Origin: Paratrimastix pyriformis | Taxonomy: Eukaryota > Preaxostyla > Paratrimastigidae | Direction: 5' to 3' | DNA length: 64,000 nucleotides | NCBI GenBank assembly: GCA_027972325.1 | Contig: JAPMOS010000128.1 | Coordinates: 31,001 to 95,000 of the forward strand | Shown here: positions 19,900 through 63,490 of the stretch, piece by piece | Layout: every line of letters starts with the position of its first letter | Position numbering within the stretch: position 1 is the stretch's first letter | The notes under the pieces: generated by a model | What the model was told of the DNA's origin: nothing | The model's input: the letters and a program-made list of their open reading frames with translations, nothing else | Databases searched by the model: none | Translations under genes and position numbers: made by a program

Positions 19900-22800
19900 A
19901 TGGCGCAAACTACTCCGATTCGGCAGAGTGACCATCTTGAGGTCTGATCTTTTCAGATGGTTGCATCGGAGTGCTGACGTTCGCGTTGATTCATTCCTTG
20001 TGCCTGATCATAGCTCTCCCGTCTTGTGAACCCTGCTGTGATCGGGTTCGCTTCGGTGACCATGAACTCCGAGAACTTCATCTGTGTCACGGATGTTGTT
20101 GGCGAGGACAAGTTCTTGGTCATTATTGATTTGAAGAACCCCCGTGCTGCCCCTCAGCGCCACAAGATCGGGGCAGCCTCGGCTGTCATGCATCCCACGA
20201 CCCAGATCATTGCTCTCAAGGGTCTGGCTTGTTCGCTGATTCGATCTTTTCACGCTGCTTTCTCACCAGGTCAGGGTATGATTCAGATTTACAACCTTGA
20301 TGTTAAGACTCGGATTAAGTCTGCCAACATCGCCGAAAATGTGGAGTACATGCGCTGGATCTCTCTTGACACTCTGGCACTGATCACTCCCACTGCTGTC
20401 TATCACTGGCCTCTTGACGGTTTGTTTTTTTCTCTCTCATTTTTCAGGTGGACTCATTCACTCTTCTTCAAAATAATAGGTGATGCGACCCCAGCGAAGG
20501 TGTTCGACCGTTCCCCTTCCCTGGCCAACCACCAGATCATCAACTATCGCACCAACGAAGCCAAGACCTGGTGCATGCTTCAAGGTGTCACCATGGAGGG
20601 CAACGCCATGAAGGGCACCCTCATGCTCTATTCGGTTGAGAAGCGCAAGGCGCAGGTTCTTCCTGGCCATGCGGCCACCTTTATCAAGCACGTTCTCGAT
20701 GGGAAGAACGATGCTTCGACTCTTTTCTGCTTCGCTCAGGGCAACAAGGTTTGCGCTTTCTCTTCACTGTTATCGCACCCACTTTTTTTCTCCAAAGATC
20801 AATCTGATCGAAGTGAGCACCGACGAAGCCCCCTTCATGAAGAACGGCGACATCTTCTATCCTCCCGAGTTCGCTCAGGATTTCCCTGTTGCGATGGAGT
20901 TTGTTGAGAAGTATGGCCTCGTTTGCGTCCTTTCGGGCTATGGCTTCCTCTTCGTTTATGAGGTGGAGTCGATGCAGCTCATTTCGATGTCTCGGGTTTC
21001 TCAGACTCCCGTCTTCGCCACCACCATCGCCGGTAACGACGGGCTTCTCGCCATCAACAAGACTGGCTTGGTCTGTGGCCCTGCCTCTTGTTCTTTTCCA
21101 GTTGTGTGGTGAAAAATGATGCATCCTCACGTTGCCGCCCCAGACTGACGGGCTTCCTTTGAAGATTGCAACGTAAATAATGGCTGAATTCCATGATTTT
21201 CTTTTTTGTGGTGTTGCACTTCCTCCTGCATTCGTTCATAATCCCTTTCTTTTTTGGCAATGCAGGTGAGCAAGCTCCAGGTCGACTCTGCGGCCATCAT
21301 CCCGTACATCACCTCCAAGCTTCGGAACCTCGAGCTCGCCATCAAGATCGCCTCCCGCGCCAATGTCCCCGGGGCCGAGGATCTCTTCCGCGAGCAGTTC
21401 GAGGCTCTCTTCCGTCAGGGCCTGTACAAGGAAGCCGCGAAGGTGGCCGCCACCTCCCCTCAGGTCTGCCTCTTCTGCGCGCTTGTCCGTGTGCACTTTG
21501 ATCTGTGATTATCACGTAACGCACCTCCCGCAAAGAGGTGGCCAAAAATTCATGCGGATTCACTTTACAAAGCACGTCAGTCTCGTCTGAGATCCAACCA
21601 CTGCCCTTCCAGTTTGTTCTCTGCTCTTTTTGAACCCGTCCTCAATTGTTTTCCCACTGTCCATTTGCGATTTGCAGGGTGTGCTGCGGACCGACCAGAC
21701 CATCAACCGGTTCAAGCAGGCCCCCGTCATCCCGGGCCAGGCGCCTCCCCTCATCCAGTACTTCTCCCTGCTGCTGGACAAGGGCAAGCTGAACCAACTC
21801 GAGTCGCTGGAGCTGGTGATGCCCATCATGCAGACGGGCCGCAAGGACTTCGTCGATAAGTGGCTGAAGGAGGGCAAGCTGACCTGCTCTGAGGAGCTCG
21901 GCAACTTCATGAAGCAGCACGACCTTCAGATGGCTCTGGCCATCTACCTGACGGCCGAGTGCTCCGCCAAGGTGGTGCAGATCTTCGCCGAGACTGGCGA
22001 CTTCGATAAGATCATCCAGTACGCCACCACCGTCCACTACCAGCCCGATTATGCCGGCCTCATCCGCGGCCTGTGCGCCACCAACCCCAAGGTCTGCTTC
22101 TTCTCCTGCCTCTGTGTGCCTGTTCGGATCTGTGATTATCACGTAACGCACCTCCCGCAAAGAGGTGGCCAAAAATTCATGCGGATTCACTTTACAAAGC
22201 ACGTCAGTCTCGTCTGAGATCCAACCCCTGCGAGAGCCATTCGGCCATCCTGCCCTGTTTTCTCCGTCTCACTTCTTTCTTTTTCCTCTTCCTCGCTCAG
22301 GGTGCCGCCGCCCTTGCTGGCAAGCTTGCCACCTTCCCCCAGGGCGCCCTGGTGGAGCCTGGTGAGATCATGGAGCTCTTCTTCCAGCGGAACATGATTC
22401 CCGAGCTGACGGCCCTCATGATTGACGTCCTGCAGCGCAATGATCCCTCTGACTCCAAGTTGCAGACCCGCTTCCTGGAGATCCTCCTCCAGAAGGTCCG
22501 CTTCTCCGAGGGGCGGGGTCCTTGCGTGCTGGGCCTTTTTGTTTTGACGTGATGCATCCTAACGTTGCCGCCCCAGACTGACGGGCTTCCTGTGAAGATT
22601 GCAACGTAAATTTTGGCTGATCCTCGACCCACTCTGCTTTTTCGCATTGCGCCGCTCCGTCTTTCTCTTCGCTCACTCCTCTTCTCCTTCCGCTTGCCCT
22701 TTTCCCAGGCTCCCAACGTGGCCGACGCCATCTTCGGGAAGGCCCTCTACTCCCAGTACGACCGGACTTACATTGCCCAGTGCTGCGAGAAGGCTCACCT

Positions 22801-25800
22801 CTACCAGCGGGCTCTGGAGCACTACACCGAACTGGCTGACATCCAGCGGTGCATTGTCAACACCAACATGATCAACCCCGAGTTCCTTGTCCAGGTCCGC
22901 CTCCCTGTCTGGTTCTGTTGGTCTTGTCGGGGGTGACTTTCGAGGATGACTTCTAATTCTGACTAGCTGAAATCTTCAAAATTCCGTGTTGTCAAGCGGA
23001 GACGCTTCGTATCGCACTGAGAAATTCCTGTTTCCTCTGCTTTCCGTGTCCTCGTTGTCCTTCGGCCGATGATTTCATCGTTTCTTTTTTCCCCTCTCTG
23101 CCCAATGCAGTATTTCGGCCAGCCTGTCCTGACGCCGCCTCAGGGTCTTGAGTGCATGAAGACCCTCCTCAAGAACCGGGCCAACATGACCCTCTGCATC
23201 GAGATCGCCAAGAAGTTCACTCAGAAGTTCGGCCCCCGTCCCCTGGCCGAGCTGTTCGAGTCCTTCAAGATGTTTGATGGTCCGTACGGCAGTAGGTGCT
23301 GGAGTGTGGTGGTGCGAGCGGCTCTGATGTTACTTTTTATCCTGACTTTTTTCAAACGAAAAAAACCTTTCATGAGGGTCTACATGAGATTACTGAGCCC
23401 CTTCGGTCTTGATACCTTTGGTGCCGGCTTTTTCTGGCTTGTCTTCTCACCTCTTCCGCCTCTGCCTCCCCCGCCAACAGGGCTGTACCTCTTCCTGTCG
23501 AGCATTGTTGCCGCTCTGACCCTGGACGAGAAGGACCTTGTGCTGAAGTTCATCCAGGCCGCTGCCAAGATCCAGCAGTACAAGGAAATCGAGCGGGTCG
23601 TCCGGGACCTGGCCAACTTCGAGCCACGCGAGGTGAAGGACTTCCTGAAGGAGGCCAAGATCGACCCCCAGTCGCTGATCATCCTGTGCGACAAGTACGG
23701 CTTTGTCGACGACCTGACCAAGTACCTCTACGAGAACAACATGCACAAGGCCATCGAGGGCTTTGTCACGGCCTACAACCCCCGCCAGACCCCCATCGTG
23801 GTCGGGACCCTGCTCGACCTGGGCTGCAACGAGGACTTCATCAAGGGCCTGCTGAACGCCGTCCGGGCCCAGTGCCCCATCCCGGAGCTGGTCGAGGAGG
23901 TTGAGAAGCGCAACCGGCTCAAGATGCTCCAGGCCTGGCTCGAGGCCCGCGTCGCCGACGACAACAACGTCGAGCCGGCCACCCACTCGGCCCTGGCCAA
24001 GATTTACATCGACTCGAACGCCAACGCGGACCAGTTCCTGGAGAGCAACCTGTACTACGACACCCTGGTCGTTGGCCGGTACTGCGAGAAGCGCGACCCT
24101 CACCGTGCGGTCATTGCCTACCGGCGCGGCAAGAACGACGACGAGTTGATCGAGGTCACCAACCGCAACTCGCTCTTCAAGGCCCAGGCCCGCTATCTGG
24201 TGGAGCGCCAGGTCTGCCTCCTCTGATTGGTGGGTTGTTGTTGTTGTGCGCGGTCGCGATTATTATGATGCAGAACAACGTTGCCGCCCCAGACTGACGG
24301 GCTTCCGGTGAAGATTGCAACGGATTTTTGGACTGAACTACTTTTTTTTCGCGTAATTGTGTCGGGGGGTTCCGTTTCTGTGTGGGCTTTTTTGCTCATG
24401 GCCTTTTGCTCTTTGCTCTTCGTTTTCCCCAGCTGCCCGAGCTCTGGGCCAAGGTGCTCGTGGAGACCAACCCGCTGCGTCGCCAGCTGATCGACCAGGT
24501 TGTCTCGACTGCCCTGCCCCAGTCGAAGAACCCTGAGGACGTCTCGGCCACCGTCAAGGCCTTCATGAACGCCAACCTGCCCAACGAGCTGATCGAGCTG
24601 CTGGAGAAGATCATGCTCCGCCGCTCCGAGTTCTCCTCCAACAAGAACCTCCAGAACCTGCTCATCATCACCGCCATTCGGGTCCGTCTTGCCGGGCCCC
24701 TCGCCGCTCTCTCGCTGCGTGCTCTGTGTCGTCGGCTGTTCGATGATGCTCTTTGTATACGCTTTGAGAGACCCGTCTGGGTCGTGATGCAAACTATTGC
24801 GGGGCTAAAACCCCACTGAGGAACACTGATAGGGATCCCAGCGGCACGATGAAGGTACGGCACCTCACGCCGCTCTCGTTTCTGCCTCCCCCTGCCCTTC
24901 CACCACCAGGCCGCCCCTGACCGCGTGAAGGAGTACATCCAGCGCCTGGATAACTACGACGGCCCCGAGCTGGCCAAGTACGCCATCAAGTCCCGCCTGT
25001 ACGAGGAGGCCTTTGAGATGTACAAGCGCTTCAACAAGCACGTCGAGGCCGTGGGTGTCCTGCTCCGTGAGATTGGTCGGTCCTCCTCGCCTCTTTACCT
25101 TGCTGTGCGCGACCTCTTCACTCAGATGTGATGCATCCTCACGTTGCCGCCCCAGACTGACGGGTTTCCTTTGAAGATTGCAACGTAAAAATGGCTGATC
25201 CTCGACCCCCCCCCTCCTGCTTGTGCCCCTGTGCCCCCTCGGCCGCTTCCTCACCTTTTTTCCTCTTCCCTTCAACACGCACAGGCAACGTTCCCCGGGC
25301 CACTGAGTACGCGACCACCGTCAACCTGCCCGAAGTCTGGTCGGAGCTCGCCGAGGGGCAGCTCGCCCAGAACCTGGTCTCCGAGGCCATTGGTCAGTCC
25401 TGCCTTGCCTCCCCTCAGCTTGCCGTGGGTGGTATGTTTTTCGATGATGCTCTATGTATACGCTTTGAGAGACCCGTCTGGGTCGTGATGCAAACTATTG
25501 CGGGGCTAAAACCCCACTGAGAAAATCCTACCGACTCGAGCGCCCTGAGTACCTGCGGTCGCTCATGTTCCCTCTTCCTGCCTGCCCCCCCTCCCACCCC
25601 CAACTGCAGAATCGTACATCAAGGCCGCTGACCCGTCCAAGTTCGACCGTGTCATCGAGGCGGCCAAGACGGCCGGCCTGTACGCGGCCCTGATCCCCTA
25701 CCTGTCCATGGCCCGCAAGCAGGGCGTCAAGGATCCCATTGTCGACGGTGCCCTCGTGTACGCCTACGCCAAGACCGACCGCCTCGCCGATCTCGACGAC

Positions 25801-28208
25801 TTCATCGCCTCGCCCAACACCGCCGACGTCTGCTTCTCCTCCCTTTGCCCTGCTCTCGTCCTGCCGCCATGTCGCCCTTCTCTGCTTGGAGACGGTGATG
25901 AGATTCTACAGATTCCCCTTCTTACTCACCCGTGGTGATTAGTCTTCACCCCCGGCAGCCTAACAAACTGTCGGACTGAGCCTCCACTGCCCTCGCTGTT
26001 GTTGTTGTGTGCTTTTTCCTGTCTCCTCCGTCCTGCTCGCTCGCTCACACCCTCCATCCGCTCCTCGCTCGCGCAGCTGCAAGCCATTGGCGAGGAGTGC
26101 TTTGGGGAGGCCCTCTACCACGCTGCCCGGTCGATCTTCACCCAGGTGGGCAACTGGGTCCGCCTCGCTTCGACTCACATCAAGCTCGAGGCCTATCAAG
26201 CTGCTTTCGAGGCCGCCAAGAAGGCCATGACCATGCGGTCCGTTCGCCGCCCCCGCTATGGCTTCGCTGCCTCCTCCTCCACGGCGAGACGGTGATGAGA
26301 TTCCACAGATTCCCCTTCTGACTCACCCGTGGTGATTAGTCTTACACCCCGGCAGCCTAACAAACTGTCGGACTGAGCCTCCACATCCACACTCTCTCTG
26401 CCCGCTTCCCTCCAGTTGTTGCCTGTGCTCACCCTCCGATTTCCCTCTCCTCACAGGACCTGGAAGGAGGTGTGCTTTGCGTGCGTCGAGGCCAAGCAGT
26501 TCCGGCTGGCCCAGCAGTGCGGTGTCAACATCTGTGTGCAAATCGACGAGCTTGAGGAGCTGATCCGGTTCTACCTGGAGCGTGGCCACTTTGAGGAGAT
26601 CATTGCCCTGCTCGAGTACGCCATTGATAGCGAGCAGCGGCCGCCCCACATGGGCATGTTCACCGAGCTGGGCGTCCTCTACAGCAAGTTCAAGCCCGAC
26701 AAGTTGATGGACCACCTGAAGAAGCCCAACATTGTGGCCCGGCTGAACATTCCCCAGCTGCTGCGCGTCTGCGAGGAGAACCTGCAGTGGCCCGAGTGCT
26801 GTTTCCTCTACTGCCACTACGACGAGTACGACTACGCCGCCAGCACCATGCTCAGCCACGGGGTGGATGCCTGGTCCCACCAGCAGTTCAAGGACGTCAT
26901 CTCCAAGATTGGCAATGTCGAGATTTACTACAAGGTCCGCCCGCCCGCCCACTTTGCTTATCCGCACGGACGCACAGAAACACGTATAAATGATGCAGAA
27001 CCACGTTGCCGCCCCAGACAGACGGGCTTCCGGTGAAGATTGCAACGCATTTTTGGCTGACTCCTGTTTTCCCAGTGTGGGTTGTTGTTCCCTCTGCACC
27101 CGACCAGATTTCTCATCTCCTTTCCTTCCTCTCGTCTTCCCCTCCCGCAGTCGATTGATTTCTACATCCAGCAACACCCTCTGCTCCTCTGCGACCTGCT
27201 CAACGTCCTGACGGCCCGCATTGACCACAGCCGCGTCGTCGCCCAGACCCGCCGTGCCGGCCAGCTGGCCCTGATCAAGCCCTACCTGCTCCAGATTCAG
27301 CACCTGAACATCGCCGAGGTCAACGAGGCCCTGATTGACATCCTCGTTGAGGAGGAGGACTGCCACGCCCTGCGGACGGCCCTTGAGGAGCACGACCAGT
27401 ACGACGCGGTCCGTTTGATCTGCCTTCCTGCCCGCCCCTGCGTGGTGACATCATGATGAAATCCATCCAAACAACAACATAATAGGAAGTGCCGTCTGAA
27501 GGCTTCGAAACCCTCATGACGTCAAATGGAATACTGACACATTCGCACGCTCGTTCCCCCTCTGCTGATCGCCTACTTTTTCCGGCCCATGGCTCACCTG
27601 TTTCTGTCTTCTCTGCTGTCTCTCATCAGATCGCCCTTGCCCAGCGCCTGGAGAGCCACGAGCTGCTTGAGATGCGGCGGATCTCGGCCTGGCTCTACCA
27701 GAACAACAAGCGCTGGTCCCAGTCGGTGGCTCTCTCCAAGCGGGACCACCTCTACCACGACTGCATGGCCACCGCCGCCGCCTCTGCCGACTGCGAGGTG
27801 GCCGAGGACCTGCTCCGCTTCTTTGCCGACCTGCCCGAGGCCTTCCGTGCGCCCTGCTTTGCGGCCTGCCTGTACACCTGCTACGACATCCTGCCCGTCG
27901 ATGTGGTCATGGAGCTGGGCTGGTCGTGCGGCCTCAACGACTACGCGATGCCATTCCTGATCCAGTCGACCCGCGAGTACACGGCCAAGGTGGACGTCCT
28001 GGTGGCCGGCCGGGAGGAGGACAAGAAGAAGAAGCCCGCCGCCCCTGCGGTCGGTGCCGATGGTGCCCCCGTTGCCACCGAGGGCGCCCCCGTCCCTGTC
28101 ATGGGCGAGCCCATGCCCCCACCAGTGGCCCCCTTCGCCCCCGTCGGTGGCGTGCCCCCTCAGGCCTACTACATGTCCCCCTACGGCGGCGCCCCCTCTG
28201 CCTTCTAA
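19900..28208 (+). CDS. CLTC: Clathrin heavy chain
   Basis: Vesicle-coat triskelion subunit. The product starts [14 protein letters not shown] and tracks the family from beta-propeller to C-terminus: 1,683 residues (animal protein about 1,675). Exons: 19900-19941, 20014-20221, 20270-20419, 20480-20748, 20798-21070, 21266-21463, 21678-22091, 22301-22495, 22709-22894, 23111-23279, 23481-24211, 24433-24681, 24910-25075, 25285-25392, 25610-25827, 26077-26237, 26457-26934, 27151-27408, 27630-28208. All junctions keep frame. Recognisable segments include FICVTDVVG (propeller), [20 protein letters not shown]-type helices of the clathrin repeats and [19 protein letters not shown]. The tail is Pro/Ala-rich. 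Donors follow GTYYG. Introns 1-4 are 48-72 nt; introns 5-18 are 195-249 nt and each carries a snoRNA or candidate. Confidence 0.97.
21112..21191 (+). ncRNA. Box C/D snoRNA, family A copy 1 (clathrin intron 5)
   Basis: C box ATGATGC 21116-21122, D' box CTGA 21145-21148, C'-like TTTGAAG 21158-21164, D box CTGA 21184-21187. The conserved guide ACGTTGCCGCCCCAGA lies directly before D'. Five copies in different introns share this core while the flanks differ. Confidence 0.85.
21499..21595 (+). ncRNA. Box C/D snoRNA, family B copy 1 (clathrin intron 6)
   Basis: C box GTGATTA 21505-21511 and D box CTGA 21587-21590, enclosed by a terminal GATC/GATC stem (21500-21503 with 21591-21594). Identity with copy 2 covers the whole element and stops a few bases outside it. 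Internal D'/C' boxes are not clear. Confidence 0.75.
22126..22222 (+). ncRNA. Box C/D snoRNA, family B copy 2 (clathrin intron 7)
   Basis: Same element as in the preceding intron. C box GTGATTA starts at 22132, D box CTGA is 22214-22217, and the terminal stem GGATC/GATCC (22126-22130 with 22218-22222) is one pair longer than in copy 1. Confidence 0.78.
22545..22624 (+). ncRNA. Box C/D snoRNA, family A copy 2 (clathrin intron 8)
   Basis: C box GTGATGC 22549-22555, D' CTGA 22578-22581, C' GTGAAGA 22592-22598, D CTGA 22617-22620. The D' guide is unchanged from copy 1; the stretch before D differs in its last bases. Confidence 0.87.
22935..23026 (+). ncRNA. Candidate box C/D snoRNA, single copy (clathrin intron 9)
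   Basis: Degenerate C box ATGACTT (22945-22951), D' CTGA 22958-22961, D CTGA 23017-23020, and a terminal TTTC/GAAA stem (22937-22940 with 23021-23024). Box C is poor. The call rests mainly on position, size and stem in a gene whose neighbouring introns all carry C/D RNAs. Confidence 0.45.
23318..23402 (+). ncRNA. Candidate box C/D snoRNA, single copy (clathrin intron 10)
   Basis: C box CTGATGT (23324-23330), D' CTGA 23342-23345, C'-like ATGAGGG 23372-23378, D CTGA 23393-23396, with a short GGC/GCC terminal stem (23320-23322 with 23397-23399). Confidence 0.5.
24260..24341 (+). ncRNA. Box C/D snoRNA, family A copy 3 (clathrin intron 11)
   Basis: C box ATGATGC 24265-24271, D' CTGA 24294-24297, C' GTGAAGA 24308-24314, D CTGA 24333-24336. 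The D' guide core is conserved; the sequence before D is changed relative to copies 1, 2 and 4. Confidence 0.87.
24738..24824 (+). ncRNA. Box C/D snoRNA, family C copy 1 (clathrin intron 12)
   Basis: C box ATGATGC 24743-24749, C' GTGATGC 24784-24790, D CTGA 24816-24819, terminal stem GTTC/GAAC (24738-24741 with 24821-24824). Internal hairpins ACCC/GGGT and GGGG/CCCC are present in both copies. Confidence 0.87.
25123..25203 (+). ncRNA. Box C/D snoRNA, family A copy 4 (clathrin intron 13)
   Basis: C box GTGATGC 25128-25134, D' CTGA 25157-25160, C'-like TTTGAAG, D CTGA 25195-25198. Close to copies 1 and 2. Confidence 0.87.
25437..25525 (+). ncRNA. Box C/D snoRNA, family C copy 2 (clathrin intron 14)
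   Basis: C box ATGATGC 25444-25450, C' GTGATGC, D CTGA 25517-25520. The terminal stem is TTTTC/GAAAA here, against GTTC/GAAC in copy 1. Both sides changed together, which is direct covariation support for a folded RNA. Confidence 0.88.
25887..25986 (+). ncRNA. Box C/D snoRNA, family D copy 1 (clathrin intron 15)
   Basis: Consensus C box GTGATGA 25895-25901, C' GTGATTA 25935-25941, D CTGA 25976-25979, terminal stem TGGAG/CTCCA (25887-25891 with 25982-25986). The D' box reads CTTA here instead of CTGA. Confidence 0.88.
26283..26384 (+). ncRNA. Box C/D snoRNA, family D copy 2 (clathrin intron 16)
   Basis: C box GTGATGA 26292-26298, D' CTGA 26318-26321, C' GTGATTA 26332-26338, D CTGA 26373-26376, short GAG/CTC terminal stem. 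All four boxes are intact, unlike copy 1. Confidence 0.9.
26985..27065 (+). ncRNA. Box C/D snoRNA, family A copy 5 (clathrin intron 17)
   Basis: C box ATGATGC 26990-26996, D' position reads CAGA (27019-27022) instead of CTGA, C' GTGAAGA 27033-27039, D CTGA 27057-27060. The guide before D' is unchanged. Confidence 0.83.
27443..27545 (+). ncRNA. Box C/D snoRNA, single copy (clathrin intron 18)
   Basis: Consensus C box ATGATGA 27453-27459, D' CTGA 27496-27499, C'-like ATGACGT 27516-27522, D CTGA 27534-27537, with a possible GTG/CAC terminal pairing. Unlike the other families it has no second copy in the window. Confidence 0.75.
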
Positions 28209-28617
28209 GGGGTTGGGGCCTGGTTGCGGTGTGATGGTGCGGGGGCTGATCATCATGTCTTCATTGTAATATTTTTTTTTCCCATTGCTTGTGCTTGCTT
28301 GGCCAACACACCTTCACGACCGCGACCCTCCTGGACATTTTTCTCTCTCTTTTTCTGTTTGTCGTTTCCTTCTTTGCCTCTCTCTCTGAGGGTCCGCTAA
28401 TATCTGCATTTCCCGACTCGCCGCTCGAATACATCGCGGGGCCCCACTCTGCGGAGTGGTCAGCCCCCTGTCCCCTGACTTTTCCTTCGATTGGGGAGAT
28501 TTTTACCGGAACAGGTGAGCTTGGGATCGCACCCCAGAAGCAGCTTTTTTTGTGCAACTCTATTGAGTCCACACTTGTTCATGAGAAAGGAGGAGGTAGA
28601 GAGATGGGGTGGTGATT
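28209..28617. other. Clathrin 3' flank
   Basis: Presumed 3' UTR and terminator region of the clathrin gene: T-rich with no gene seen. It separates the repeat-poor left half from the satellite-rich right half. Confidence 0.5.
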
Positions 28618-29300
<683 letters not shown>

Positions 29301-31870: not shown

Positions 31871-34256
31871 TCACTGGGCAGGGTCGCTGAGGGAGCCGTA
31901 CATCTCCAGGCCCCCGAGCACCAAGTAGTGGAACCCGCTGGGGCTGGGGCCGGTCATCAGCACCCGGAAGCGGCGGGCCGGGAATGCCCGTTCGGGGGCC
32001 ACGGTGAAGGTGACCATGGCATCGACACGGGCGGGGATGGCGTTGGGCTCGTTGGTGTGCTCGTCCAGGGTCCGCCAGTTGCCCTCGGCACCGTCCACCG
32101 AGCCCTCCAGCCGCCAAGACTGCAGCCGATGCACCACATCGGCGGGGGCGTTGCTGTGGCGAAGGGTGTAGCGGGTGGGCCTGAAGAGGCGCTCGGCCCC
32201 CAGGTCAACCTGCCACCACGCGTTGGGCTCATCACCGGTGCAGCAATCGCACTGCTCGCGCCCCAGGGCGTCGGAGGCACCACCGTCATCCCACGAGGAG
32301 GAGCGGGTGGTGATCACCCAGCCCGCCTCGGCCGGGTTGCGCCAGGGCTGGGTGCGGCCCTGGGTGCCCAGGTAGTAGAACAGGCCCCGCTCGTCCATGT
32401 CGTGGTCGTGATGAAACTCAATTGCTGGGGGTGGGGCGCGAGCGTGGGGAAGGGGTGGTGGTACGGGAAAAAAGTGAGTTGGATGTACTGCGAGGAGTGA
32501 ATGAAAGACTTGGGCTGGGGTGGCTGGCTGGGCTGGAATGGAGGAGGTTTGGGGATGGAGGAAGAGGGGAGGACAGGGGGGAAGGCGCCGGACTGGGGGC
32601 CAGTGAGGGGCGGCACGTGACAGCCGTGGAGGGGCCGCTCTCGACCAGGCCCCGCAAGGCCACCGCCACAAATCGGGCCTCGGCCCAGCCCGGGGCGGCA
32701 CCATGAGGGAAGCGATACCGGCAGCGGCACTCGGGGCCCATGTAGACGACCGAGCTGCTGCCGGGGCTGCCCCCGTACCCACCACCAACCACGAGGGTGG
32801 CCTGCACCCGGTAGCAGACAGGGGGCCCCATCAGGATGTCACCCTGGGGGAACCAGGCGGGTTCGGCAGGCACGGGCTGCCAGTCGAGGGCAACCTCCTT
32901 TGTGGTCGCGTCCCAGCGGGCCTCGAGGCCCTCGGGGGCAGCAGGCGGGAGGCACAGCTGGCGTGGGGGAGGCGCGAACAGAAGACAGTGGCAATAGGCG
33001 TGATGATGAAGATCCGGGGTGGGGGAGGCGCGAATGAACAGATGCGCGTGGGGGGAGGCACGAACAGAGGGCCAGTGAAGACAGGGCATGAGAGCACAGG
33101 AGTGGGACGAGGAGGAACGGAGAATATCGATTTATTTTGTTTTTTCTGGAGGTGCTGGGGCCCCGTGCTTGCGGAAATATCATCGGATGAGGGCCGGGAG
33201 AAAAGACTCCATCCCTCCCCCCCCCCCCCCCCCCCCCCCCGACCTTTTCGATTGGGCGCGCAAGTACAACGTCGATGGTCAGACACAGGCAGACACAGAC
33301 ACGGACACACACAGGGCGGGTGGGACGACGGACCCGATCGATGTGCGACTGGGTACTCTCCTTGGTCAGGGCCAGCTCGGCACAGCACCTGGTGAGCTCC
33401 CGCGAGCACTGTGCGAGCTCACCCTTGGTCTGGGCGAGGTCGTGCTGGGTCTGGCCAAGGCCGGCCTCGGTCGCCGCCAGCCGCGCACCCAGTTCGGTCT
33501 TGGTCTGGGCGAGGTCCTGCTGGGTCCGACCGAGGTCGGCCTTGGTGGCTGCCAGCGCGGCGGTCGTGGCTGTGAGGTCGGCCTTGGTCTGGGCCAGGGC
33601 TGCCTGACATTGGGTCGTCTCGGCCCGACTGGCGGCCAGCTGGGCCCTGGTCTGGGCCAGGTCGGCGCTGGTGTCGGCCAGGCGCTGCCTGAGGAGGCCC
33701 ACGTGGGCCACCACCCCGTCCCGCTCGTGGGCGGCCAGGTCTTCCTGGGCGCAGTTGGTCGGACAGCCCACATCCGCATACCCGCAGGCCATCTGTGCCG
33801 ACGCAAAAGGCGACATGGACGCCACACGGCATCAGCACCCATCGGAATTGATTGGATGAACGTCGAGGGGGAACAGTCGTGGGAGATCATCATGGGTGGG
33901 AACGGACCGGCTTGCGGGCGCATGTGGTGTCCTTGTGGCGGGCCATCTCAGCCCGGGGCACCAGCTCCCGGCACTGGTCGCACTCCTCCTCGCGCCACTC
34001 GCACTCCGCACCCAGGTGATGCTCCACATCCAACACCCCCAGAATAGCCGCGCACCCTAGGCCCCGGTTGGGGCAGTGGCATTGCATCTGTTTCACCAGA
34101 CGCTGAACGACCCGCGAAGGGCGCAACCTGGTCAACGCACGGGATTGATGAGGTGATCGTGACGCCAAACAACAGACTGCTCCTCAATAAACTTCTCGTG
34201 GCATGCTGGGCAGACGCCGCCAATGACCGCCGCACATGCCCTGCAGATCGTGTCAC
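31871..34256 (-). CDS. RING/TRAF-type zinc-finger, coiled-coil, FN3 and F5/8-type (discoidin) domain protein
   Basis: Exons in transcript order: 34256-34178 (CRACAAVIGGVCPACHEKF, second half of a RING-like finger), 34127 to about 33,910 (CPNRGLGCAAIL...HHLGAEC, TRAF-type finger), 33792-33334 (second TRAF finger, then a long coiled coil of LAQTKxxL repeats), 32957 to about 32,622 (fibronectin III-like) and 32424-31871 (GLFYYLGT...TQPWRNP, WWQVDLG, YTLRHS: the discoidin-like fold found in BTB and HECT proteins). Donors mostly GTCTG or GTCCG. The first RING half and the start codon were not located upstream of 34,256, and the last junction phase is unresolved. Architecture suggests a ubiquitin-ligase or signalling adaptor. 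Confidence 0.75.
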
Positions 34257-34900: not shown

Positions 34901-37474
34901 CTCTATTCGTCGACCTCTTCATCCTCGGGGAGCTCGCCGGCATCGTCGTCGTCATCACCCCCAAACAGGGGCTTCTTCTTCGAGCCTGCGGTGAGATATC
35001 CCCATTCAAGAGAAAAGATTTATGAGGTGAGTCAAAAACCAATCATCATCCAGCCATGATCACCACCCCATCCCAGTCGTCGCCACCACCCATCCATCAT
35101 CATCGCCATCAGTCCACCATTCATCATCATCGCCGTCCATCGCCATCATCCCATCGCCCGTCATCGCCCACCCCCATCGCCCCACCCCCCATCGCCCACC
35201 CCCATCGCCCACCCCCATCGCCCACCCCCATCGCCCACCCCCATCGCCCCACCATCCAGCAGTCACCATCCAACAGTCATCATCCAGCAGTCATCATCCC
35301 CACCACGGAGTCATCAATCAGTCATCGGCATGATCCTCCCCATCTAACCATCATCATCATCATCATCAGCCAATGATCATCATCAACATCATCATCATCA
35401 TCATCCAATTCATCAACATCATCCAATGAATGATGATGATCATCATCAATCATCACCATACGAGACCTTTCTTTCGGGGCTTCTTGGGCTTGGCTGGGCG
35501 CGCCTTCTTGGCGGGCTGCTTCTTCTCGGCCTCGTATTCGCTGCTCTCGCTCTCCTCCTCGGGCTCCTCCTCGGCCTCCTGCAGAAAGAAAGGTGGTGGT
35601 GGTGGTGGTGATGATGCTGATGCTGATGCTGATGCTGATGCTGATGCTGATGCTGATGCTGATGCTGATGCTGATGCTGATGCTGATGCTGATGCTGATT
35701 GGATGCTGATTGGATGCTGATTGGATGCTGATTGGATGATGCTTGGATGATGCTGATGCTGATGATTGGATGATGATTGGATGATGATTGGATGATGATT
35801 GGATGATGATTGGATGATGATTGGATGATGATTGGATGATGATTGCTCTCCTCCTCGGGCTCCTCCTCGGCTCTGCGGGTGCCGAAAGGAAGGTGATGAT
35901 GGCAATGGGATGATTGTGGGGGTGCTGATGACGATGCTCCTGATCTGGATGATGCGATGATGCTGATTGCTGATGCGATGATGCTGATGCGATGATGCTG
36001 ATTGGGTGATGGATGGTGATGACGACTGATGATGATTGCTGGATGATGACCGAGGGGGCCAGACCTCCTCCTCCTCCTCGCCCTCGGACGGCTCGCTCTC
36101 GTCCTCCTCGGAGGAAGCGGCCTTCTTGGCCCGTCGGGCCCCCTTGCCGCGAGGCTTCTTGGCGGCAGCGGCGGCCTTCTTCTTCCGGGGCCGCTCCTCC
36201 TCCTCGTCGCTGACCACGAAGTCGCCCATGTCCTCCTCCTCCTCGCCCTCCTCGGCACCACCGTCGCCCTCGTCCCCGCTGCTCTCCCGCTGTGCAGTGG
36301 GGGGGAACCCAAGTTGGGGAAGCAAGTGGGCGAAGTGGGAACCAAGTGAGCGAAAGTGGGAACCACGTGTAGTAGGAACGAAGCGGGAAGAAGGAAGTGG
36401 GAACCCAAGTGAGCGAAAGTGGGGAACCAAGTGAGCGAAGTGGGGAACCAAGTGTAGTAGGAACGAAGCGGGAAGAAGGAAGTGGGAACCCAAGTGAACG
36501 AAGTGGCCCCCCAAGTGGGAACCAAGTGAGGGGGTGAGGATGGCAAGGCGGGGGGGGGGAGCGACCTTTGCTCGACTGGCGCGGGGTTTGCGGGTTTTGG
36601 TGAAGCGGGGCAGGGGCCGTTTGGGGCCACTGGTGGTCCGTGTTCGCCTGCGCGGCGCGGCCTGTGGTACAACAAGATGATCAGGGGCGGTGGGTACAAC
36701 AAGACGATCAGGGGCGGTGGGTACAACACAAGATGATCAGGGGCGGTGGGTACAACACAAGATGATCAGGGGCGGTGGTACAATAAGATGATCAGGGGCG
36801 GTGGTACAATAAGATGATCAGGGGCGGTGGGTACAACAGAAGATGATCAGGGGCGGTGGTACCACAAGATGATCAGGGGCGGTGGGTACAACACAAGATG
36901 ATCAGGGGCGGTGGTACAATAAGATGATCAGGGGCGGGTGTTGGGAAGAGCGCAGACCTTCTCCTTTGGGGCATAGGATTCCTTGAGGGCCCCGATGTTG
37001 CCTGAAGTTCGGAAAGGGGCGCGTGAGTGGATATCAAGGGAAGGGGTGCATGAAGGGAAGGCGCGGGCATCATCATCATCATCATCATCACCATCACCAT
37101 CACCATCATCATCATCATCCAATCATCATCCTCACCACCACCGCCACCGCCACCATCATCATCACCATCACCATCATCATCCAGATCATCATCCTCATTT
37201 TCCGGGGGCATGTATGGCTGACCCTCTTCGTCCCCATCGGCAGCGGCCTGCTGGGGCTGATCGGCCTCGAGGGCCTCAGCCGTCAGCCTGTCGGTGCCCT
37301 CCTTCTCGTACTGGGCAAGCACCTTGCGACGGCCCTTCTCCAGCTGGGCAAGCGACTTCTGGCGGGCTTGCTCGAACTGGGCGAACATCATCATCATCCA
37401 GGCATCATCATCAACATCATCATCAACATCATCAACATCCAATCATCATCATCATCCAATTCATCATCACCCAG

Positions 37475-51678: not shown

Positions 51679-54600
51679 GGATGACGAGGACGATGGCGAT
51701 GATTAGATGATGATTAGATGAGGATTAGATGGTTGGATGATGGTGCAGGATCTGGTAGGCCCGATAGCTGGGCTTGGGGATGCCGTGCATGTTGAGAAGG
51801 CCCCAGCCGTCGCCCTGTGGGGATGGTTGTGGTGGTGATGGTGATGCTGTCTGGATGATGTTGATGAGATGGTTTATGATTTATGGTGATCGTATGATGA
51901 TGCTGATTGGATGCTGATTGGATGATGGTGATCTGCGATGATGAATAATGGTGATGATGGTGCTGATGACGGTGTGTGGGGTGTGTGAGGTGCGGGCCTT
52001 GAGGAAGGGCTGGGACTCGAGGCCGCCCTCCTCGAAGAGGTCCGAGAAGGTCCACCAGGAGAAGACCTCCAGCAGGCCCCGCACATCGTACACGTTCTGC
52101 AACAGACACACAGACACACACACAGACACACAGATTTCGATGATGATGATGATTGGAGGATGATTGGATGCTTGGATGACACAGAATGACAAAAAGGATG
52201 AGCAAGGTCTCCACCAGCAGGCCCCGCACATCGTACACGTTCTGCAACAGACACACAGACACACAGACACACAGAATGACAGAAAGGACGAGCAAGGTTC
52301 CACCTCCAGCAGGCCCCCACACAATTTCCAAAAAGGTCTGAGCCAGGAGAACGTTATCTGCATAAGGCGGGGGGGGCCGCTGTGGGGGCCGCTGTGGTGA
52401 GTAGGGGGTGGGGTCCGGACCTGCATGATGAAGGCAGCTGCGAAGGGGCGGTCGTGGTACGAGGGGGTGAAGTAGAGCCCGTCGTTGAACTCTGTGGGGG
52501 GGGAGGGCAGGCGGAAGGCAGGACCACAGGGTGGTTGTGTGAGATGATGATGATGATGATGATTGGATGATGATGGTGATGATGCTGATTGGGTGATGGT
52601 GATGATGATGATTGGATGATGATGACGATGATGGTGATGGTGATGATGGTGATGATGGTGATGATGCTGATTGGGCGATGATGGTGATGGTGATGATGGT
52701 GACATCCTGACACATACTGACACATCCGACACATGTCCCGCCGAACAGACACAAGACACACACACGACACAGACAAGACACACAAGACACACACACGACA
52801 CAGACAAGACACACAAGACACACACACGACACAGACAAGACACAGACAAGACACATGACAAGACACATGACAAGACACATGACAAGACACATGACAAGAC
52901 ACATGACAAGACACAGACAAGACACATGACAAGACACATGACAAGACACATGACAAGACACATGACAAGACACATGACAAGACACAGACAAGACACATGA
53001 CAAGACACATGACAAGACACATGACAAGACACAGACAAGACACATGACAAGACACATGACAAGACACATGACAAGACACATGACAAGACACATGACAAGA
53101 CACATGACAAGACACAGACAAGACACATGACAAGACACATGACACACACAGACAAGACACATGACAAGACACATGACAAGACACATGACAAGACACATGA
53201 CAAGACACATGACAAGACACAGACAAGACACATGACAAGACACATGACACACACAGACAAGACACATGACAAGACACATGACAAGACACATGACAAGACA
53301 CATGACAAGACACATGACAAGACACAGACAAGACACATGACAAGACACATGACACACACAGACAAGACACATGACAAGACACATGACAAGACACATGACA
53401 AGACACATGACAAGACACATGACAAGACACATGACAAGACACATGACAAGACACATGACAAGACACATGACAAGACACATGACACACACACGGCACGACA
53501 CAGACACGCATAGCCACATCACGGACCGGTGTAGAAGACGGGCGGCCCACCCACATGGCAGACGCATGACAGCCACACAGCCACACATAGCCACATCACG
53601 GACCGGTGTAGAAGACGGGCAGCCCGCCGGCCTGGGCGCGTGCCTTGAGGACAACCTGCTTCATGATATCCCGCCGGACAGACTCATACTGACACATACT
53701 GACACATACTGACACATACTGACACCTACTGACACCTACTGACACCTACTGACACCTACTGACACCTACTGACACCTACTGACACCTACTGACACCTACT
53801 GACACCTACTGACACCTACTGACACCTACTGACACCTACTGACCCATATCCGCCGGACAGACACACGACACTCGCAGGCACACACACATGACACACATGA
53901 CACACATCACACACATGACGCGCATGACACACAGACACGACACACGACACAAAGACACACATAGTCACATCACGGACCGGTGTAGAAGACGGGCAGCCCG
54001 CCGGCCTGGGCGCGTGCCTTGAGGACAACCTGCTTCATGATATCCCGCCGGACAGACTCATACTGACACATACTGACACATACTGACATATACTGACACA
54101 TACAGACACATACAGACACATACAGACACATACAGACACATACAGACACCTACTGACACATACTGACACATACTGACACCGACTGACACATACTGACACA
54201 TACTGACACATACGACACATGTCTCGCCGGACAGACACACGACACTCGCAGGCACACACACACGACACTCGCAGGCACACACAGATGACACACAGATGAC
54301 ACACAGATGACACACAGATGACACACAGATGACACACAGATGACACAGATGACACAGATGACACACACATAGTCACACCACGGACCGGTGTAGAAGACGG
54401 GCAGCCCGCCGGCCTGGGCGCGTGCCTTGAGGACAACCTGCTTCATGATATCCCGCCGGACAGACTCATACTGACACATACTGACACATACTGACATATA
54501 CTGACACATACAGACACATACAGACACATACAGACACATACAGACACATACAGACACATACAGACACATACTGACACCGACTGACACATACTGACACATA

Positions 54601-55456: not shown

Positions 55457-56936
55457 GGGAGATGATGATTGGGAGATGATGATGATGATGATGATGATGA
55501 TTGGATGATGATGATGACTGGATGATGATGATGATGATTGGATAATGATGGTAATGAGGGTAATGAAGATGATGATGATGGCAATGATGGTGATGGTAAT
55601 GATGGTAATGATGATTGGATGATGATGATTGGATGATGATGATTGGATGATGATGATTGGATGATGATGATTGGATGATGATGATTGGATGATGATGATT
55701 GGATGATGATGATTGGATGATGATGATTGGATGATGATGATGATGATGGTGCTGCTGCTGCTGCTGATGCTTGGCGGACCGACGGGGATGCGGGTATCGA
55801 CGCCCTTGATGGTGCGCACGGTGTTCTCAAGCAGCTCAAAGTACTGCGCCTGCGTCCCCGTGAAGAAGCCGCAGTTCTGCCAAGGGGACGGAGTGGGGGG
55901 GGGGGGATGATGACATGGGGAATGATGACATGGGGATGATGACGTGAAGAAGCCGCAGTTCTGCCAAGGGGACGGAGGGGGGGGGGATGATGACATGGGG
56001 ATGTTGACATGGGGATGACATGGGGATGATGACATGGGGATGATGACATGGGGGATGAATGGAAGACCGCAAAGGGGACGGAGTGGGGGGATGGACATGG
56101 AATGATGACATGGGGAATGGGGATGGTGGGGGTGGGGATGGGGAATGGGGATGCAGACCGGCTCGTTCCACACCTCGAAGAACCTGGTCGAAGAAGACGG
56201 GGGGGGGGGGAGGGTGGTGGTGGTGGTGGTGGAGGGGGAGAGGACGCAAACCAACCAAAGAGAGAATGACCGGGGATGGACCATCGAATGGGGCAATGAG
56301 ACCCTGCATGAACTGCCGGATAAAGTCGTTCCACTGGGCGTACGACTGTCGAAAACCAACACATACAGAAAAAAAATGGTTCCAAAGTGTTTGGTGATGA
56401 TGATGACCTTGGGAGGGGTGATGTTGCCCTTGTAGTGGAAAATGGTGTCCTTGCCGCTGGCCAGAGCTTCGGGCACTACGAAAGAAAAATGAGCAAATGA
56501 ACCCCCCCCCGAAGTACCGGCGGCACGGACTGAAGGACAGCTCGACAATGGGGCGCATGTCAATGGAGCGCAGGAAATCGAAGACACTGAAGACATTGTA
56601 AAGGGAGAGTTGCAGCGTGCCATTCTCGGTGACACTGAGGAGAACGCTCATGTCGTCATCGAACAGTCCGTGGAACCGAACCATCTTGAAGCCGAGCTCG
56701 TCGTGTGCCTTCTTCATCTGTTCGCGCCAGTCTGCACGGAGGGCCCTAAAGAGTGGGGGCGGAAAATGGAAGATTGATATAACGGCAAAATGAAGGGAAA
56801 ATCCAGACATCAGAGCATGGCAGGAACCGACACAATTTTCGTAGTAATGCGGAAATTCACCAACAACGGTGGGCGTGACCACAAATTCAGCAGCGGTCGC
56901 AAGTGCGACCAAACCCAGCAGGAGAAGCGTCCGCAT
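50277..56936 (-). CDS. Secreted GH39 glycosidase (beta-xylosidase/iduronidase-like)
   Basis: Signal peptide MRTLLLLGLVALATA, then a GH39 (beta/alpha)8 enzyme. Exons: 56936-56809, 56745-56531, 56475-56408, 56345-56282, 56183-56159, 55876-55780, 54963-54772, 52491-52421, 52096-51998, 51527-51297, about 50847-50785 and 50446-50277. Motifs: VELSFMPEALASG (joined across intron 2), FFEVWNEP (acid/base Glu), VDTRIPVGGPAT, DFVSTHEYPTD, VFYTEFNDGLYF (nucleophile Glu, its codon split by intron 7), SWWTFSDLFEEGG and GLLNMHGIPKPSYRAY. Intron 9 begins GC, not GT. Junctions 4/5 and 11/12 do not fit phase cleanly, so a short exon or a few bases may be missing. It probably cleaves xylosidic or glycosaminoglycan-like bonds outside the cell. 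Confidence 0.87.
50519..50547 (-). repeat. Duplicated start of GH39 exon 12 with its splice acceptor
   Basis: The acceptor CTGCAG plus the first ~20 coding bases of exon 12 (MGAPQYL) recur here, about 90 bp upstream in transcript sense of the genuine exon start at 50,446. Confidence 0.8.
51117..51292. repeat. CATATCCGGGTGGG / CATATCCGGGGG minisatellite
   Basis: A 12-14 bp unit directly beside the donor of GH39 exon 10. Confidence 0.95.
51555..51820. repeat. (GAT)n satellite and duplicated start of GH39 exon 10
   Basis: GAT repeat at 51,555-51,690, followed at 51,741-51,820 by a copy of the acceptor and first ~75 coding bases of exon 10 (GDGWGLLNMHGIPKPSYRAY) with three or so substitutions. 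The genuine exon starts at 51,527. Confidence 0.88.
52205..52330 (-). repeat. Duplicated pieces of GH39 exon 9 start with acceptor and CACACAGA tail
   Basis: TTGCAG plus NVYDVRGLL coding bases recur at about 52,212-52,247, and a shorter GGCCTGCTGGAGGT piece at 52,295-52,315, upstream of the genuine exon 9 (52,096). The ACACAGACAC run next to the acceptor is copied as well. Confidence 0.85.
52735..53500. repeat. ACACATGACAAG satellite
   Basis: About 12-bp unit ACACATGACAAG with ACACAGACAAG interruptions in higher-order blocks of roughly 110-125 bp, inside GH39 intron 7. Confidence 0.95.
53517..54472 (-). repeat. Three tandem copies (plus a stub) of GH39 exon 7 end with its splice donor
   Basis: The last ~75 coding bases of exon 7 (RRDIMKQVVLKARAQAGG...VFYT) plus donor GTCCGTGATG recur at 53,594-53,690, 53,969-54,060 and 54,378-54,470, with a stub at 53,517-53,550. 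They are spaced by TACTGACACC/TACTGACACA and ACACAGATGAC satellites. The genuine end is at 54,772. The three share a C>A change making QVV from GTT and read SVRRD instead of PVRRD at their start. Confidence 0.9.
54966..55760. repeat. (GAT)n / GATTGGATGAT satellite
   Basis: Almost uninterrupted GAT-type repeat filling GH39 intron 6. Confidence 0.97.
55940..56150. repeat. Duplicated start of GH39 exon 6 and GATGACATGGGG satellite
   Basis: The exon 6 start (NCGFFT) with its CCCCTTGGCAG acceptor recurs at about 55,943-55,975, and a stub near 56,065-56,080, embedded in GATGACATGGGGAT repeats in intron 5. Confidence 0.85.

Positions 56937-58019: not shown

Positions 58020-63490
<5,471 letters not shown>

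Follow-up and report, generated by a model that had tools for sequence, protein, structure and literature searches.

The clathrin heavy chain (CHC) gene of Paratrimastix pyriformis is, with a probability that we put at roughly 92%, a protein-coding gene whose introns 5 to 18 each carry one box C/D snoRNA, fourteen in all and of seven kinds. As such it is a known kind of multi-snoRNA host gene, and both the identity of the host and the density of its snoRNAs are unusual. All positions given without a contig or locus name refer to the window, the whole 64-kb stretch of DNA that was analysed.

Structure of the clathrin heavy chain gene

The CHC gene (19900–28208, + strand) comprises 19 exons and 18 introns, all 18 of which follow the GT...AG pattern. 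The gene model was made by hand from reading frames and GT/AG sites, and once spliced it yields a clean single frame of 1683 amino acids. Its exons match the Pfam Clathrin domain and clathrin heavy chain chains in the PDB; together with the spliced frame, these matches bear out the identification of the gene made in the sequence-only reading that preceded this analysis. All nine Pfam Clathrin matches found in the genome fall within this gene, which is therefore apparently single-copy. Of 20 other open reading frames in the window compared with Pfam, 18 gave no match; one at 55836–56936 (− strand) carries a partial glycosyl hydrolase family 39 domain and another at 31871–32788 (− strand) an F5/8 type C domain.

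Intron size in the CHC gene divides cleanly by cargo. Introns 1–4, in the stretch 19942–20797 (+ strand; 19942–20013, 20222–20269, 20420–20479 and 20749–20797), are minimal at 48–72 nt each, a length that leaves no room for a C/D snoRNA. Introns 5–18 measure 195–249 nt and carry one box C/D element apiece.

Box C/D elements in introns 5–18

The sequence-only reading had placed a C/D element in 14 consecutive introns, from the fifth to the eighteenth, and a search against shuffled sequence confirmed this. Thirteen of the 14 introns contain at least one C box with no more than one mismatch to RTGATGA and a CTGA 50–110 nt downstream, compared with 0.77 expected from 200 dinucleotide shuffles per intron; intron 10 is missed because its C box, CTGATGT, has two mismatches. 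When a stem of at least 3 bp is also required, 11 of 14 introns qualify against 0.42 expected from the same shuffles, introns 11 and 13 dropping out because their stems are only 2 bp long. At the element coordinates given below, stems of at least 3 bp are likewise present in 11 of 14 (introns 5–10, 12 and 14–17), in agreement with the terminal stem earlier noticed in most elements, and introns 11, 13 and 18 show 2-bp stems, the one in intron 18 becoming 4 bp if the C box is read 3 nt earlier. The distance from C box to D box is 71–86 nt which, once some 5 nt of stem are added at either end, approaches the 78–103 nt first estimated for the elements. The D′ and C′ boxes were noted by eye only.

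We also scanned for the full intron layout (donor, C box, D box, stem, branch point and acceptor) with a pattern that was tuned on the CHC gene and recovers 10 of its 14 introns; it gave no match elsewhere in the 64-kb window on either strand, and none in six stretches of 10 kb each taken from other contigs. When only the boxes and a 4-bp stem were required, chance matches turned up elsewhere in the window, many of them within GATGAT repeats, so these features lack specificity by themselves. Stretches rich in GATGAT or GCTGAT lie outside or just after the CHC gene at 28600–29300, 35600–35970, 51850–51970 and 59850–59960; they mimic C and D boxes and need to be masked in any C/D scan.

Families and position within introns

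The sequence-only reading gave no count of distinct snoRNAs; alignments sort the 14 elements, all on the + strand, into seven families. Family A has five copies, in introns 5 (21071–21265; element 21116–21187), 8 (22496–22708; 22549–22620), 11 (24212–24432; 24265–24336), 13 (25076–25284; 25128–25198) and 17 (26935–27150; 26990–27060, D′ box CAGA). Family B occupies introns 6 (21464–21677; 21505–21590) and 7 (22092–22300; 22132–22217), family C introns 12 (24682–24909; 24743–24819) and 14 (25393–25609; 25444–25520), and family D introns 15 (25828–26076; 25895–25979, D′ box degenerate) and 16 (26238–26456; 26292–26376). Families E (intron 9, 22895–23110; element 22943–23020), F (intron 10, 23280–23480; 23324–23396) and G (intron 18, 27409–27629; 27453–27537) are singletons; F has the degenerate C box and an LSU match before D, and G is SNORD49-like.

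Within families, identity is high inside the element and drops at its edges, and the flanks are not conserved. Copy pairs are 90% identical over 112 nt in D, 99% over 105 nt in B and 90% over 107 nt in C. In family A all five copies share an identical stretch before D′ but differ in the stretch before D, a pattern that favours D′ as the site of the working guide. The two B copies are near-identical though their host introns are otherwise unlike, and this suggests that they arose by copying of the element alone or by correction between copies.

At the gathering threshold, the only Rfam match in the window is a tRNA, and the names given to families are based on matches below that threshold or on direct evidence. 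One such match is the SNORD49-like score of family G (RF00277; 28.2 bits, E = 0.0023, gathering score 37). G shares with SNORD49 the stretch ATAGGAAGTGCCGTC and the boxes; it differs in carrying 14 extra nucleotides after the C box and in scoring under the gathering cut-off. Among the CHC elements, only G convincingly resembles an Rfam snoRNA.

Multi-snoRNA hosts are recognized by several introns with one snoRNA each, placed comparably far from the 3′ splice site; here the predicted snoRNAs occupy 14 introns, and the end of the D box lies 78–97 nt from the 3′ splice site in every one. The 5′ splice site lies 40–67 nt from the C box. A YTCAY branch-point candidate was picked automatically in 13 of 14 introns (none in intron 6), with 44–67 nt (median 54) between the D box and its A. 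The splice-site distance is the firmer of the two measures, as YTCAY-type motifs occur often in pyrimidine-rich DNA and branch-point-like patterns were not enriched in a crude count over 124 kb of the genome (217 against 350 expected). An excerpt of PMC10234308 reports a rule of 40–50 nt for C/D snoRNAs, together with the result that the majority of those expressed in humans are 100 nt or more away. The CHC gene offers a natural array of copies for testing such intron-position rules.

Predicted guide pairing with rRNA

Pieces of this genome's rRNA were located through 5.8S and a yeast 25S query. The resulting set is incomplete: the SSU lacks its first ~420 positions, and the LSU, with parts missing, was pieced together from several diverged copies (98% identity between two; 92%, in places 77–84%, between two others). 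LSU pieces are scattered across many contigs (38 matches), with several loci sharing tandem repeats and copies differing by 2–8% or more. Weak, sub-cut-off 5.8S-like matches (L016, L017 and L018), one of them on a 1.1-Mb contig, perhaps represent bacterial 23S and hence bacterial contigs in the assembly.

In the canonical-run test, we measured for 13 guides the Watson–Crick run that starts no more than 3 nt from the box and includes the fifth nucleotide; the guide limits were chosen after an earlier result was known, and the test is in that respect not blind. Family B was tested before D only, since no D′ box was assigned to it. Runs with LSU reached 13 bp for F before D, 11 bp for A before D′, 10 bp for D before D′ and 9 bp for C before D′; the remaining nine guides gave runs of 6–8 bp. 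With 200 shuffles per guide, the fraction reaching the observed run was 0 for F, 0.005 for A, 0.02 for D, 0.05 for C and 0.13 for G. Three of the 13 guides had runs of at least 10 bp (0.21 expected from shuffled guides), and two had runs of at least 11 bp (0.04 expected). On the opposite rRNA strand, used as a control, A before D reached 10 bp and G before D 9 bp, so a lone match of 9–10 bp is weak. The F guide follows the LSU letters of this genome at positions where they depart from the yeast sequence. At the SNORD49-like site, G pairs with one mismatch, and its mismatch-free canonical run before D′ is only 8 bp.

For B and E, no canonical match was found in the incomplete rRNA of the same genome. 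The best LSU match of B, 10 bp long, was discounted: it begins at position 6 and leaves a mismatch at position 5, the nucleotide that would be methylated. A looser scoring of 14 guides, including one alternative family E guide left out of the canonical-run test, against rRNA loci with flanks, U1 and U6 (60 shuffles per guide) was set aside as too permissive and the canonical-run test used instead; shuffles equalled the best score in about 10% of cases for A, B and D, 22% for G and 2% for F, and the best-scoring D site differed from the one claimed here.

Families A and D (before D′), F (before D) and the SNORD49-like G (before D′) most likely direct 2′-O-methylation of LSU rRNA. The predicted nucleotides are the second G of GGGG in GCUGGGGCGGCA for A, the third G in AAGGGGAAUC for D, the C of AAAUC in AAAUCUCAUGUAGA for F and the C of UCGGC in UCGGCUCUUCC for G. 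Family C, with its 9 bp, possibly guides LSU 2′-O-methylation as well. The sequence-only reading had made its interpretation depend on complementarity to rRNA or snRNA in at least one family; families A, D and F show it towards rRNA, as does G if one mismatch is allowed, and with the boxes, mostly present stems, spacing and family-wise conservation it supports the view of these elements as snoRNAs.

Relatives elsewhere in the genome

Relatives of family B exist in two other genes. One lies in an apparent intron of the dyskerin gene (locus L052, 1503–1587, − strand), dyskerin itself being a snoRNP protein gene. The other belongs to a dense multi-intron gene on contig C222 (~350.3–358.8 kb; loci L053, L051, L050 and L054), in which at least 16 introns hold C/D snoRNAs, several of them forming repeated families. 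This C222 gene is perhaps a non-coding host of the UHG type. Genes for fibrillarin and Nop-domain proteins are also present in the genome.

5′ splice sites and U1 snRNA

The 5′ splice sites of the CHC gene have C at +3 in 16 of 18 introns and G at +5 in all 18, with exact GTCYGY in 12. In the C222 gene, GTYYGY is found 22–80 nt before the C box in 16 of 18 snoRNA introns (24% of random windows) and GTRAG in none of the 18, and three fibrillarin introns read by eye start with GTCTGT. Across a 124-kb sample, AGGTCTGY is mildly above expectation (16 against 9.6) and AGGTRAGT below it (2 against 5.2).

Eight U1 snRNA matches were found (L055–L058 at position 1501, and L069–L072), scoring 50.8–60.2 bits, all below the gathering score of 69.5. 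Their first 24 letters are identical and start with ATACAGACCTTGC; the usual U1 5′ end is ATACTTACCTG. The complement of the changed start, CAAG/GTCTGTAT (CAAG/GTCTGT), fits the 5′ splice sites of the CHC, C222 and fibrillarin genes, and over positions +1 to +6 each of the 18 CHC donors forms 4–6 Watson–Crick pairs with this U1, against 3–5 with the usual one. U6 retains ACAGAGA in the two matches read, of four found. From these sequences, it looks as though U1 and the 5′ splice sites have co-evolved towards unusual GTCYGY-like donors. Among the papers listed in a literature search, no title or abstract shows a comparable joint change of U1 and 5′ splice site.

Interpretation

In the mechanism that we propose, splicing of the CHC pre-mRNA would release each snoRNA-bearing intron. 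The 15.5K protein, Nop56, Nop58 and fibrillarin would come together at the C/D motif, itself placed a set distance upstream of the branch point, and exonucleases would then trim the released intron to the snoRNP ends, while the spliced mRNA would still yield clathrin. Expression, processing and methylation are in this sense predictions from sequence.

One alternative is coincidence of C/D-like motifs within pyrimidine-rich introns: the boxes are short, and boxes with a 4-bp stem do arise by chance elsewhere in the window, also within GATGAT repeats. We consider this hardly credible given the excess of box pairs over shuffles (13 of 14 introns against 0.77), the absence of the full layout from the rest of the window and from the six 10-kb stretches, and the conservation of element copies within families. 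A role mainly in cis, in which the elements influence how the clathrin mRNA is spliced or how much of it there is, more than they guide rRNA modification, would fit the presence of a single element in every long intron with a constant spacing to the 3′ splice site, and cis effects of intronic snoRNAs are described in excerpts of PMC10324135 and PMC11028025. It is nevertheless improbable: some families pair with rRNA at the canonical guide position, four CHC introns have no element, and relatives of B reside in two other genes.

Loss of function among the copies deserves more weight, if still unlikely. Some copies might be dead or redundant, retroposed or locally duplicated without forming functional snoRNPs, leaving few of the fourteen at work; the CAGA D′ box of A copy 5, the degenerate D′ box of D copy 1 and the 2-bp stems in introns 11 and 13 would be its traces. 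Yet the D boxes, near-consensus C boxes and spacing have been kept among copies while the flanks diverged, as have the stretches before D′ in A and before D in B. Starting from the preferred reading of a fourteen-snoRNA host, we tentatively suggest, at well below even odds, that in this lineage the CHC gene has turned into a snoRNA array amplified for dosage. Introns 5–18 would be long only for their cargo, and the cassettes would have spread from intron to intron as units, as copies alike in the element and unlike in the flanks would suggest. Expression of a membrane-coat gene would thereby be coupled to ribosome modification, alongside a second host that is apparently non-coding.

Comparison with known host genes

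Excerpts of the literature state that many snoRNAs reside in introns of ribosomal-protein and biogenesis genes (PMC7277114) and that ribosomal-protein, translation and RNA-binding functions are over-represented among the hosts of expressed human snoRNAs (PMC10234308). Against this background, the earlier remark that a coat-protein gene is an unusual host was fair, though hsc70 provides a coding precedent outside translation (excerpt of PMC7277114). Clathrin as a snoRNA host was not found among the matches listed in a literature search, which does not prove its absence from print, and the word clathrin does not occur in PMC3511168. Human hosts also include non-coding genes. A coat-protein gene that has a C/D element in each of its long introns suggests that a gene may qualify as a host through strong, constant expression and introns that can be spliced, and not through its own function.

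The hsc70 (HSPA8) gene resembles the CHC gene as a protein-coding, non-translation host, with three U14 copies in its introns (excerpt of PMC7277114); it is a different gene and carries three copies of one snoRNA, whereas the CHC gene has fourteen elements of seven families. Rfam, the one comparison made for U14 homology, named no CHC element U14. UHG (SNHG1) and gas5 share with the CHC gene the many C/D snoRNAs per host, 8 and 10, respectively (excerpt of PMC7277114), against 14. UHG apparently has no coding potential; the CHC exons code for 1683 amino acids, so the gene is not of the UHG type, and the nearer counterpart of UHG in this genome is the C222 gene. In Neurospora crassa, 45 of 55 C/D snoRNAs are intronic, in coding or non-coding hosts that include UHG-like clusters, and the distance from 5′ splice site to snoRNA is mostly 41–60 nt (excerpt of PMC2780460), similar to the 40–67 nt that separate the 5′ splice site from the C box in the CHC introns.
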